This document shows, piece after piece, positions 16,413-19,191 of a DNA stretch of 35,540 nt (the first letter of the stretch is position 1; each line of letters opens with the position of its first letter). This DNA comes from Saccharofermentans sp. (lineage in GTDB: Bacteria > Bacillota > Clostridia > Saccharofermentanales > Saccharofermentanaceae): NCBI GenBank assembly GCA_024403855.1, contig JAKSRC010000016.1:1-35540 (forward strand), given 5' to 3'. The notes beneath the pieces are model-generated. The model did no database searches. It was given only the letters and a program-made list of their open reading frames with translations, and was not told where the DNA came from. Position numbers and translations under genes: made by a program.

Positions 16413-17873
16413 TCAGGCAACGATTTTTTCATACCTCGCACCACCAATCACGCTAAGCATGAAATTGTACGGATTGAGGTTGCCTTCCTTAAGCATCGCA
16501 AAGATGGAAGGTGATGTTCCGGAAACCAGAGTAACCCCTTTTTCGTTCATGGTGACAGGCTGCTGTCTGCTTCTGCTGTTGACGTTCCAGAAAACTACAG
16601 AAGGGAGTTTGTAGCCGTGTGACTCAAACTTCATTTTCGCGTTTTCAAAGTTCGTCAAAGACGCATCAGATGTGCACCAGTCAAATTCCATGTCGGAAAT
16701 AATGACTATCCTTTCAGGCATGTCCTTCTGCTTCATTCTGTACTTGACGGCAGTGTTCAAAATCAAGTTGAAAGTCTTCTCGATATTTGTGTTGCTGACT
16801 TCGTTGAAGCCCATGCAATATCTGACCTTATCGAAAATATCTCTTCCCTTGATTTCAACTAACTGAGGTCTTGAAGAGAATGTGATGAAGTGATTCTTGA
16901 AAGCACCTGTGTTGCGCTCTGCAAAATAGATGCCCAAAGATTCAGCAACTGCAATAGGGCTTACAGGCATGTCTTCGTACATGGAACCGGAACCGTCAAC
17001 TACAACGAGTGTATTGCCGGAGCCTGCATAGTTTTCCAAGGATTTCCATGTTGCATCCAAAGCCTTTCTGTCTGCTGCAGACATAGTATCGCCATCGATT
17101 ACAGGTCTTATGATTTCATAAGGTGTCAAAGTCTTTGTGTTCAACACGCCGGGATTCTCAGAAGCCCTGTTTACGAATGCACAGTATCTTTCGTTGTCAT
17201 TTCTGATGAAAGCCTTTCTGTACTTGAACAAAGCCTTTGAAGGCTGTGCCTGATAATCGAAAGAATAGTCCTTCACTCTCAGGTTGTTCTCCAAAATCTT
17301 CATGTAAGCTCTCAAAGAAGACAATGTCTTTCTGTAGTTAACTTCAGACATGCCGATTCCTCTGGCAATCTTTTTTGCCATTCTGACTGTCTCTTTTGAG
17401 CTTGCGTTTGCAGAAGGGAGCCACTTCGCCATCAAGGAGACGCCGGAGTTATTCTTCATGGAAGAAATGTCAGACTCCAATGTTCTTCTGATATAGGCAA
17501 TAGCATCAGCCTCACAGGGTGTATCCATGAGCACCAAAATATCGTCGCATCTGCCGTATTCAGCGATGTTTGTGATATTTTTTCTGACAATTTCAGGATA
17601 GTTCAAAGCCAAATCCTTCAATACGACTCTGAAAAATCTTCTCTCGCCCATACCACCTCTGATATCTCTTGCAAAAAAGAGAATCTTCATGGCGATATCT
17701 CTGTCTTCAGCGAAAGCCATTACGAATCTTTCGAGAATCTCTTCGTCTGACGCATTTCTCAATGCGCCTGCTGTAGCGAAAAGGTCCAAGCAGGAAGAAT
17801 TTGTGCTGGCCATTGTTACTGCACCATTTTCAGTAAATGTTTTGTTTGCTTCTGTCTTTAAAAAGTTCAACAT
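16413..17873 (-). CDS. DUF2828-family protein: TROVE/Ro60-like module plus vWA domain
   Basis: This 486-residue protein has an alpha-helical N-terminal region (about 1-280; FFARDIRGGMGERRFFR, NIAEYGRCDD) similar to DUF2828, comparable in layout to the HEAT-like TROVE ring of Ro60. The C-terminal vWA domain carries a MIDAS motif DGSGS (293-297) and SDMEFD (393-398), followed by VVFWNVNSRSRQQPV and GVTLVSGTSPSIF, strongly reminiscent of plant and viral DUF2828 proteins. Ro60 binds misfolded RNA and Y RNA; a similar RNA-binding role is inferred. I start at ATG 17873, since AAAGGAG lies 9 bases upstream; ATG 17879 is too close. Two structured RNA elements directly precede the ribosome site, and a WYL regulator is divergent. 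Confidence 0.9.
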   Translation of the reverse strand: MLNFLKTEANKTFTENGAVTMASTNSSCLDLFATAGALRNASDEEILERFVMAFAEDRDIAMKILFFARDIRGGMGERRFFRVVLKDLALNYPEIVRKNITNIAEYGRCDDILVLMDTPCEADAIAYIRRTLESDISSMKNNSGVSLMAKWLPSANASSKETVRMAKKIARGIGMSEVNYRKTLSSLRAYMKILENNLRVKDYSFDYQAQPSKALFKYRKAFIRNDNERYCAFVNRASENPGVLNTKTLTPYEIIRPVIDGDTMSAADRKALDATWKSLENYAGSGNTLVVVDGSGSMYEDMPVSPIAVAESLGIYFAERNTGAFKNHFITFSSRPQLVEIKGRDIFDKVRYCMGFNEVSNTNIEKTFNLILNTAVKYRMKQKDMPERIVIISDMEFDWCTSDASLTNFENAKMKFESHGYKLPSVVFWNVNSRSRQQPVTMNEKGVTLVSGTSPSIFAMLKEGNLNPYNFMLSVIGGARYEKIVA

Positions 17874-17894
17874 TTTCATTATCTCCTTTATAAC

Positions 17895-17963
17895 AAGGTG
17901 CTCCCGGGATCCCTCCCGGGAAAGTCTGTTTTCTAGATCCACATCATTTGCTGTGTGCACCTT
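17895..17963 (-). ncRNA. Tandem RNA element 2 (cloverleaf-like), abutting the DUF2828 ribosome site
   Basis: On the minus strand AAGGTGC (17963-17957) and GCACCTT (17901-17895) form a perfect 7-bp closing stem around 55 nt. Inside are a hairpin CACA-CAGCAAATGA-TGTG, then AACAGAC, then an 8-bp stem TCCCGGGA-GGGA-TCCCGGGA capped by a GNRA tetraloop just before the 3' strand. The size and order of arms imitate a tRNA cloverleaf, but the T-loop is not tRNA-like. It shares CAGCAAATGAT, AACAGAC and the AAG/CTT ends with element 1. AAAGGAG starts 5 bases after the element, so it could be a cis-regulatory leader as well as a separate RNA. Confidence 0.65.
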
Positions 17964-17976
17964 TAGTCAACGTAAC

Positions 17977-18064
17977 AAGACACGTCTGTTCAGGCGTTTT
18001 GCCTGGCGGGAATTGAACCCGCAATGCCGATCTTGGTAACCATATCATTTGCTGCAGGTGTCTT
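17977..18064 (-). ncRNA. Tandem RNA element 1 with a tRNA T-arm
   Basis: On the minus strand AAGACAC (18064-18058) and GTGTCTT (17983-17977) form a perfect 7-bp closing stem. Inside, in order, are CAGCAAATGAT (18054-18044), a perfect T-arm GCGGG-TTCAATT-CCCGC (18022-18006) that fits the tRNA consensus, a hairpin CAGGC-AAAAC-GCCTG, and AACAGAC (17990-17984). Compared with element 2, three of the seven closing pairs differ and all remain paired. This is internal covariation evidence for an RNA fold. It does not fold as an ordinary tRNA: no acceptor partner stands directly after the T-arm. Y RNAs of Ro60 systems also carry tRNA-like modules. Confidence 0.65.
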
Positions 18065-18084
18065 TGCCGTTGCATGCTTATGTT

Positions 18085-18116: not shown

Positions 18117-18145
18117 TTGACTTAAAGTTACAACCCCAATATAAT
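18117..18145 (+). promoter_or_regulatory. Promoter of the WYL regulator gene
   Basis: TTGACT (18117-18122), a 17-nt spacer and TATAAT (18140-18145) form a near-consensus sigma-A promoter. The start point would be near 18152, giving a 56-nt leader. One copy of the 13-base repeat lies within the spacer. Confidence 0.8.
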
Positions 18146-18195
18146 GCGGTTATTAAGGCTTTTTACGAATAAATTAGCAATTTTACAACCCCAAT
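18128..18195. promoter_or_regulatory. Two 13-base direct repeats, candidate operators
   Basis: TTACAACCCCAAT occurs at 18128-18140 and 18183-18195, 55 bases apart. The first sits in the spacer of the WYL promoter. The second sits just upstream of the WYL ribosome site. On the minus strand each copy contains TTGTAA, which could serve as a -35 for the RNA-element transcript. Binding by the WYL protein is inferred. Confidence 0.6.
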
Positions 18196-18207
18196 TAGGA
18201 GATATTA

Positions 18208-19191
18208 ATGACCGAGAAATATAAAATCTATCTTTCCGAAGACACCAAGATGCGTCTTATAAACGACGCCGAACTGTTCGAATTCACAAGAGCGGACGGC
18301 ACCGTTAACCTAAACGGCTTTCTTAAAGAACTCATCGTTAACTATTTCGACCAGTATCGTAAAGATAATGAAGAACTTTTAGAAAATGTTATAGGCGAAC
18401 TTTCTTCAATCAAGTCGCTTAAGGATAAAGAAGCTAGTCTTCTGGCAGATAAGATAATCAGAACATACATCAATAACAAAGAGAACTCTTCAGGCAAAAG
18501 CGCCGTAATCACGCTCACGGTAAGTGGTGACTCCTACAGCACAATTCAGATAATTGAGAATAATCTTCTGAAGGACACTTCTCTTTCAGGCTACATAAAG
18601 GACATGTTCCTGTCGTATCTTTCAATTCCGAGAAATACACGTGAAGAGATAATCTTCAGACCTACTTACGATGCGATAAACAGAGCCATCCGCGAGAACA
18701 GAATCCTCACCTTCTCATCTTCAATTGCTCGAAATAAAGGCACCAAGACAGTCGAGCCTTATCTTATTGCATCTTCGAAAGAGGAACAGTTCGGCTATCT
18801 GTTATGTCGTGACGCCAATGGCAAAAAGGATCACTCTTTCAGAATCTCAAGACTTAGAAATATCTTTGTCTCATCAGATACATTTACACCTGATAAAGAG
18901 ACGGCAGAAAGGCTGTCTCGAGTCGCCATAAGAAGTCCACATTCTGCTACTCCTGATGTTCATGCAGTTATCCGCATGACAGAACAGGGTAAGCTGATGT
19001 ATCAGATGATCGTTAAGAATCGTCCTGCCGTATCCAAAATAGAAGGCGATAAATATCACTTCGACTGGCCACAAAACCAGCTCGAAGATTACTTTAAACG
19101 CTTCGGAAAGGACGCAGTGGTCATTAGTCCGAAGTCACTTAAAAAGGATCTCAGAAACTACTACGAGAAAGCGTTAGGAGCGTATAAGTAG
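18208..19191 (+). CDS. WYL-domain transcriptional regulator
   Basis: This is a 327-residue protein. The N-terminus (about 1-60; VNLNGFLKELIVNYFDQY) looks like a small DNA-binding helix pair, possibly ribbon-helix-helix. The centre (about 150-235) is WYL-like, including the basic stretch SFRISRLRNIFVSSD typical of the domain's ligand face. The C-terminal part (about 245-327) resembles the WYL C-terminal extension. WYL proteins sense nucleic-acid or nucleotide ligands and control RNA-repair, defence and DNA-damage genes. It is divergent from the RNA elements and DUF2828 gene, with a strong promoter and repeated operator candidates between, so it probably controls that system. TTAGGAG precedes the ATG. 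Confidence 0.88.
   Translation: MTEKYKIYLSEDTKMRLINDAELFEFTRADGTVNLNGFLKELIVNYFDQYRKDNEELLENVIGELSSIKSLKDKEASLLADKIIRTYINNKENSSGKSAVITLTVSGDSYSTIQIIENNLLKDTSLSGYIKDMFLSYLSIPRNTREEIIFRPTYDAINRAIRENRILTFSSSIARNKGTKTVEPYLIASSKEEQFGYLLCRDANGKKDHSFRISRLRNIFVSSDTFTPDKETAERLSRVAIRSPHSATPDVHAVIRMTEQGKLMYQMIVKNRPAVSKIEGDKYHFDWPQNQLEDYFKRFGKDAVVISPKSLKKDLRNYYEKALGAYK

Follow-up and report, generated by a model that had tools for sequence, protein, structure and literature searches.

Candidate Y RNAs with a distinct Ro stem and variable, often tRNA-like heads accompany DUF2828 genes in Clostridia and phages

The closest described relatives of the RNAs reported here are bacterial Y RNAs of the YrlA class (RF02553), which are bound by the Ro-type protein Rsr. 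The basal stem of YrlA tethers Rsr, and its head binds PNPase (PMC8394870). In Salmonella, the rsr-yrlBA-rtcBA operon combines a Ro-type protein and a tRNA-like Y RNA with RtcB and with RtcR, a divergent regulator whose ligand-binding domain is of the CARF type (PMC7790460). A 2014 report is cited for Y RNAs together with a 'Ro-like RNA binding protein' in mycobacteriophages (phage Loadrie and its kin). In Listeria phage CKA15, an Rsr homolog lies next to abundant unannotated RNAs that have been proposed to be Y RNAs, with no structure given in the portion of that report drawn on here (PMC12282133). In the current study, we examined two tandem RNA elements, E1 and E2, on the minus strand of a 35,540-nucleotide stretch of DNA from Saccharofermentans sp. 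(contig JAKSRC010000016.1; hereafter called the window), where they precede a gene for a DUF2828 protein. These elements are probably Y-type scaffold RNAs of a second Ro family. Y RNAs with Ro-like proteins are already known, including those of mycobacteriophages, and the family described here is a variant with a different Ro stem and with paralogs that carry an anticodon arm. Among the Y RNA papers listed in literature searches, none presents this RNA family in its title or abstract opening; an earlier description in Chen 2014, Sim 2020, Wang 2018, or Burroughs and Aravind 2016 is possible.

E1 (positions 18064-17977, 88 nt) and E2 (17963-17895, 69 nt) are separated by 13 bases, and both are located 5′ of the DUF2828/DUF7788 gene. 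An earlier note on this DNA had proposed that the two are homologous minus-strand elements closed by 7-bp stems, and the coordinates and pairing confirm this. The closing stems, AAGACAC/GTGTCTT in E1 and AAGGTGC/GCACCTT in E2, are perfect helices that differ at pairs 4, 5, and 6, and all three differences are compensated, as had been claimed. Each 5′ strand is followed by two bases and then by GCAGCAA in E1 (18049..18055) or ACAGCAA in E2 (17948..17954), which are the two copies of a conserved (A)CAGCAA motif. The 3′ end of E2 is indeed only five bases (GTTAT) from the AAAGGAG ribosome site of the gene (17889-17883). The strings CAGCAAATGAT, TGG, and AACAGAC that were said to unite the elements are present in both, but ATGAT, TGG, and AACAGAC are not kept among relatives. 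Weak one-mismatch matches elsewhere in the genome of the window, among them a tandem pair on contig 23, have no closing stem.

The head of E1 is partly YrlA-like. It carries a T-arm-like hairpin, GCGGG-TTCAATT-CCCGC (18006..18022), that gives partial matches to YrlA and to the T-arm of tmRNA. Directly 3′ of this arm is a second hairpin, CAGGC-AAAAC-GCCTG (17991..18005), which aligns to positions 31-62 of RF02553 and appears to correspond to the closed acceptor stem of YrlA. Only these two parts of E1 are matched by the YrlA model (18.6 bits), and there is no clear D-arm. An additional outer helix is predicted around E1, formed by CAACG (18068..18072) and CGTTG (17968..17972); the mean pairing of E1 flanks with their own partners exceeds that of all 500 permutations, in which relatedness was ignored. 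E2 holds a G+C-rich hairpin. E1 is the partly YrlA-like member of the pair, with T-arm and closed acceptor-type hairpin, and E2 a paralog. In the window, no Rfam family reaches its gathering score and ARAGORN predicts no tRNA. The earlier note knew of no described RNA class with this consensus, which agrees with the absence of an Rfam family at gathering score. However, the class is not without relatives, given the predicted Ro fold of the partner protein, the T-arm and hairpin of E1, and the tRNA or YrlA heads found in related elements.

Relatives of the DUF2828 protein were sought with an alignment query, which gave 379; a scan of genome contigs with the single protein as query had yielded no confirmed relative. 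The best 80 of these 379 form the named loci counted below, which come from Saccharofermentans-type metagenome-assembled genomes, Butyrivibrio, Oribacterium, Anaerovibrio, Pseudoflavonifractor, Oscillibacter, and others. The 5′ motif alone occurs 152 times within 1.5 kb upstream of the genes, with at least one match per locus. In 142 cases, the first seven bases of the match have their exact complement, with a G after it, within the following 200 bases. When other observed stem types are used as a control, the complement is found in only 6 of 914 comparisons. The expectation that DUF2828 orthologs carry the stem and motif upstream was borne out in every one of the 80 loci. Across all 621,097 bp of these loci, the motif with exact complement and G is found 145 times on the strand of the gene, and is absent both from the opposite strand and from reversed sequence. 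If G-U pairs are tolerated, one element is found on the opposite strand and three lie outside the upstream region.

The conserved core of the family is AAG-R-Y-R-C-NN-(A)CAGCAA ... G-Y-R-Y-CTT-G, with rare exceptions, and the usual A precedes CAGCAA in 127 of the 145 elements. Because seven of the eight stem types among paired elements are of the form AAG-R-Y-R-C, the three middle pairs vary and yet remain paired. Each closing stem is nearly invariant inside one genus, and so the compensatory changes lie between paralogs and between lineages. In E1 of a single genus, the closing stem is constant, but the T-arm and the hairpin that follows it covary, with 11 cells changed on both sides versus 2.8 in shuffles and 0-2 in slid alignments. 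The 16 sequences used were chosen by hand, mostly because they show the hairpin after the T-arm, and the structure was taken from one of them. In the same sequences, the number of further pair types (5) is not above that in shuffles (5.3).

The association of the RNA with the gene is evident in broader samples as well. Among 99 related genomes searched, 35 encode the DUF2828 protein. An E1-type and an E2-type element are located in the same order 5′ of the gene in all 30 same-genus loci examined, the window included. Of four further loci, two are from the same genus and hold both elements, with an imperfect E1 stem in one (judged partly by eye), and two are from other genera and hold one element each; two remaining weak matches were left out of these counts. 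In a class-wide draw of 291 genomes, DUF2828 is found in 14 and scores above the cut-off in 11, and elements are present in 10 of these 11. Arrays comprise up to six elements, or seven by a looser rule. A small converse test, from which seven genomes originally found through DUF2828 were excluded, gave four genomes with a closed element located by RNA pattern alone, and three of these have DUF2828. The short pattern AAAGRYRCNNRCAGCAA matches in 85 of 391 genomes of the class versus 17 in the reversed control. It was not used to count elements, and most lone matches among those examined have no closing stem.

The earlier note regarded the loops between conserved parts as freely variable, but the heads of many members prove to be tRNA-like. 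Using a perfect 5-bp stem and a canonical T-loop as the criterion, T-arms are present in 57 of 140 distinct bacterial elements (mean 0.17, maximum 2 in dinucleotide shuffles). These are distributed unevenly, occurring in 47 of 60 AAGACAC elements and in none of 47 AAGGTGC elements. A hairpin follows the T-arm in 20 of the 57 versus 4.4 in shuffles (maximum 9), and many T-arm elements are without it. Among the 83 elements that have no T-arm, 25 carry a hairpin resembling an anticodon arm (mean 1.2, maximum 4 in single-base shuffles). Elements with T-arms were excluded from this test since T-loops fit the same pattern; the count without this exclusion, 74 of 140, is inflated. In 16 of the 25, the anticodon-like triplet is GTT or GTC and the loop is CTGTTAA, CTGTCAA, or CTGTCAC, and 13 of the 47 AAGGTGC (E2-type) elements have an anticodon-arm hairpin with an Asn, Asp, or Ile loop. 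By these counts, a piece of the tRNA body is more usual in first elements, and some second elements have an anticodon arm. Eight loci were scanned with the Rfam tRNA model, and seven of them gave matches above its gathering score, eight in all; seven of these matches are inside recognized elements and one (L175, 2876-2947) is between two. ARAGORN, when applied to 58 loci, calls several elements tRNAs and makes other calls between elements or elsewhere in the flanks.

The gene that follows E2 (16413..17873, minus strand) encodes a protein with DUF2828 (PF11443) and DUF7788 (PF25043) domains. When its structure model is compared with the PDB, the top 13 matches are all Ro or TROVE proteins aligned over the whole length. 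The protein is thus predicted to have the fold of Ro60 and Rsr, in which a helical-repeat ring is closed by a vWA domain. The metal-site motif DxSxS of the vWA domain (DGSGS in the window) is present, and residues D294, S296, and S298 are invariant across 30 aligned proteins. PADLOC does not match the protein, and the literature found for DUF2828 consists of plant papers only, as judged by title. With regard to the start of the gene, the ATG at 17873, 3′ of AAAGGAG, is the likelier choice. A further in-frame ATG is present at 17879, and the longest open frame (16413-17960) begins with GTG at 17960, inside E2.

These RNAs resemble YrlA in that a basal stem is formed from both ends and the RNA is encoded beside a gene for a Ro-type protein. 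In some phage members, the head also has all three parts of the YrlA head in the same order (T-arm, closed acceptor hairpin, D-arm), whereas E1 of the window has the first two with no clear D-arm and E2 has none. The differences concern the outer stem and motif, which here are AAG...NN-ACAGCAA...CTT-G, the arrays of up to six or seven, the paralogs in which an anticodon arm replaces T-arm and acceptor, and the partner gene, which is DUF2828 rather than Pfam TROVE. Four TROVE loci from the same class provide a direct comparison. Just 5′ of the TROVE genes there are YrlA matches that extend over the whole model at 42.0-50.9 bits, with heads in the order T-arm, acceptor hairpin, D-arm. Two of three alignments inspected have an outer stem like AUUAGAG/CUCUAAU. 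From this comparison, the type of head appears to be common to both Ro families, and the predicted Ro handle differs.

From IMG/VR, 318 stretches encoding a relative of the protein were recovered, and the best 80 loci were used for the phage counts. Thirty of these hold 57 elements of 22 stem types (near-identical contigs counted apart); 44 lie upstream of the gene and the other 13 downstream. None is on the opposite strand, and none is found in reversed controls. Several are located inside phage tRNA clusters (32 loci scanned). Among 64 distinct phage elements recognized by a looser rule, 11 have a T-arm. Seven of these continue after the T-arm into a 6-10-bp helix closed by a short loop, and then into a tail that resembles a D-arm by eye. 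As read from these predicted structures, the seven elements have a circularly permuted tRNA order, as in YrlA. YrlA itself matches with an E-value of 4.3e-6 inside one phage element and 1.1e-4 just before another. Side observations include near-complete circularly permuted tRNAs at L223 (2742 and 6625), L221 (1959), and L211 (1157), where the 3′ acceptor strand leads through a short linker into the 5′ acceptor strand; three of them are Ser- or Tyr-like by their loops, as judged by eye. At other loci, among them L201, L202, and L240, the DUF2828 gene is located in or beside a tRNA cluster with up to 21 tRNA genes.

Elements are also found at eight of 14 named phage loci, from phages of Mycobacterium, Enterococcus, Bacillus (two), Listeria (two), Escherichia, and Campylobacter, of which the Listeria elements are recognized only by the 7-bp stem rule. 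Bacillus phage vB_BcoS-136 has three elements within its tRNA cluster. The protein of mycobacteriophage Loadrie belongs to this family and is 37.5% identical to the phage query along its length. Downstream of the Loadrie gene is an ACAGCAA element in which a T-arm, a closed hairpin, and a D-arm can be read by eye. Unlike the setting of the mycobacteriophage Y RNAs, the clostridial arrays stand with WYL and RtcB genes. In the Listeria phages A511 and cka4, which are related to CKA15, three ACAGCAA elements closed by 7-bp stems immediately precede the DUF2828-family gene.

In relatives, the layout of the locus is WYL gene, RNA array, Ro-like gene, and RtcB gene. Of the 80 named bacterial loci, 79 have the WYL gene; it lies on the opposite strand in 75 of them and shares the strand in the other four. 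RtcB is encoded 3′ of DUF2828 in 65, where it should be noted that some loci are cut by contig ends. An Oscillibacter locus additionally carries RlaP, of an RNA-repair nucleotidyltransferase family. This arrangement resembles the Salmonella operon, with its Ro-type protein, tRNA-like Y RNA, RtcB, and divergent regulator. It differs in that the regulator is a WYL protein rather than RtcR, the Ro family is DUF2828, and the RNAs form arrays with another Ro stem (PMC7790460). Neither RtcB nor TROVE was found in the genome assembly of the window, and its locus is therefore a reduced version of the arrangement.

Several observations weigh against the assignment of these elements as Y RNAs of a Ro family. 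The RF02553 scores are below the gathering threshold of 69, with a best value of 18.6 bits in the window and 42.0 in phages, although this cut-off is strict, given that the four TROVE-linked YrlA RNAs from the class do not reach it either. No clear tRNA piece was found in E2 of the window. The structure model of the protein is of limited quality (mean predicted local distance difference test score 75.8, predicted template modeling score 0.57), and its best superpositions have root-mean-square deviations of 6-7 Å. Pfam TROVE (PF05731) does not match the protein, in which only DUF2828 and DUF7788 are found. Since sequence profiles searched against the PDB give no Ro match, the link to TROVE rests on the fold; a profile-profile comparison with four TROVE proteins gives a probability of 4.8 and an E-value of 0.0083. 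The association of RNA and gene also has exceptions. The exact own complement is missing for 10 of the 152 motif matches, one genome has DUF2828 with no element in the ∼1 kb upstream (G359), and another has a single closed element near a contig end without DUF2828 (G387). No element is recognized by the strict rule in 50 of the 80 unnamed phage loci, and none was found in six of the 14 named ones (phages of Staphylococcus, Vibrio, Klebsiella, Aeromonas, Synechococcus, and Erwinia). Finally, RtcB was not found in 15 of the 80 named bacterial loci and is fragment-like in two loci (L148 and L153).

If these RNAs function as Y-type scaffolds, the basal stem and ACAGCAA motif would load the RNA onto the Ro-like ring presumably formed by the DUF2828 protein. 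The variable and often tRNA-mimicking head would then be presented to tRNA-handling enzymes. The elements may be cut out or transcribed as small RNAs, the WYL protein could control the locus, and the heads might serve as adaptors or baits when tRNAs are surveyed and repaired. Because RtcB, RlaP, and the WYL regulator adjoin, we consider the recognition or repair of damaged tRNAs, or the baiting of tRNA nucleases, to be the most likely role, and hold this view with about even confidence. A more specific and distinctly tentative scenario is that the array is a diversifying set of tRNA mimics on a second Ro family, in which one RNA represents the tRNA body and its sister the anticodon arm, such that the Ro-like particle baits anticodon nucleases and passes cut tRNAs to RtcB in both bacteria and phages. 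The body RNA would have T-arm, closed acceptor, and D-arm but no anticodon arm, a division of parts that we regard as speculative. The anticodon loops of the sister RNAs are mostly those of Asn and Asp in bacteria, and those of Asn, Lys, Tyr, and others in phages. It is conceivable, although doubtful, that phages have turned such a bait the other way and keep it inside their tRNA clusters.

Other explanations for the arrays are possible. The earlier note had left the choice between free RNAs and a tandem cis-regulatory leader, whose hairpins would stay in the mRNA and control DUF2828 translation, for example by autoregulation. The short distance from E2 to the ribosome site and the position of both elements 5′ of the gene in the 30 same-genus loci are consistent with a leader. 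However, this half of the proposal now seems unlikely because arrays reach six or seven elements, because in two genomes (G108 and G388) the array is directly 5′ of RtcB with DUF2828 further on, and because 13 of the 57 phage elements are downstream of the gene, while several are in tRNA clusters. Autoregulation could still operate in addition. Tandem structured RNAs directly 5′ of a single gene also recall type III toxin-antitoxin loci, in which RNA repeats neutralize the protein encoded downstream. The predicted Ro fold, the RtcB, RlaP, and WYL neighbors, and the many tRNA-like heads make this the least probable of the alternatives.

Two further possibilities take the tRNA resemblance at face value, and we give little credence to either. 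Degenerate tRNA genes or debris positioned by chance would account for the ARAGORN calls, the eight matches to the Rfam tRNA model, and the phage elements in tRNA clusters. In each case, however, the element is enclosed by the conserved stem and motif, and the stem shows compensatory change. Moreover, entire arms are missing from many heads, some heads have a circularly permuted order, and the calls on array elements include the anticodons AAA (L193, 2952-3021), AAT (L166, 622-696), and ATG (L138, 3290-3363), which are not expected in bacterial tRNAs. Alternatively, the elements could be permuted precursor tRNAs whose basal stem marks an intron-like junction and whose ends are ligated by RtcB to give working tRNAs. 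The seven phage elements with T-arm, linker-closed acceptor-type helix, and D-arm-like tail fit this proposal, as does the proximity of RtcB in 65 of 80 bacterial loci. However, YrlA is normally built in this order, many heads cannot form a tRNA, phage clusters already contain normal tRNA genes, and RtcB was not found in the genome of the window, which makes this idea similarly remote. Y-type scaffold RNAs remain our preferred assignment.

With 140 bacterial and 64 phage elements, the family comprises about two hundred distinct natural variants, in which a putative Ro-binding handle stays constant and the head is free to vary. Members are present in isolate genomes of Butyrivibrio and Oscillibacter and in Bacillus phages, often beside RtcB. 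This family makes the bait or adaptor idea for the tRNA-like heads of bacterial Y RNAs directly testable. It also provides a biochemical hypothesis for DUF2828, named as a domain of unknown function, and accounts for some odd tRNA annotation calls. Annotation pipelines may list array elements with unusual anticodons as tRNA genes; other odd ARAGORN calls (L175, 2874-2949; L179, 3226-3301) are outside recognized elements.

In the window, the divergent WYL-domain regulator gene is at 18208..19191 on the plus strand and is kept with the locus in relatives. Between this gene and E1 there are two TTGGGGTTGTAA repeats (18128..18139 and 18183..18194, minus strand) versus 0.10 expected, which are likely operator sites of the WYL regulator. 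Similar repeats are present in same-genus loci. The same interval contains an AACCCC stretch and, directed toward the WYL gene on the plus strand, a sigma-70-like promoter match (TTGACT-17-TATAAT, 18117-18145) that agrees at 11 of 12 positions. On the minus strand upstream of E1, the one promoter match listed is 9 of 12 (18208-18180). In some other loci (L182, 883-3067; L103, 1794-3499), a pair of adjacent WYL or WYL/WCX genes replaces the single one.

Listeria phage A511 also gives a match to ROOL RNA (L285, 2995-3546) that scores 87.5 bits, below the gathering value of 99.1, with an E-value of 1.9e-16. The match falls in an unannotated gap whose position is roughly that of the region with the highest reported transcription in CKA15 (PMC12282133). 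By this correspondence, the abundant CKA15 RNA could be a ROOL RNA instead of a Y RNA. DUF2828 relatives are encoded in 682 phage records. They are also present in four plasmid records (H26-H29), including those of Bacillus subtilis and B. amyloliquefaciens (∼160 kb), which may be phage-plasmids.
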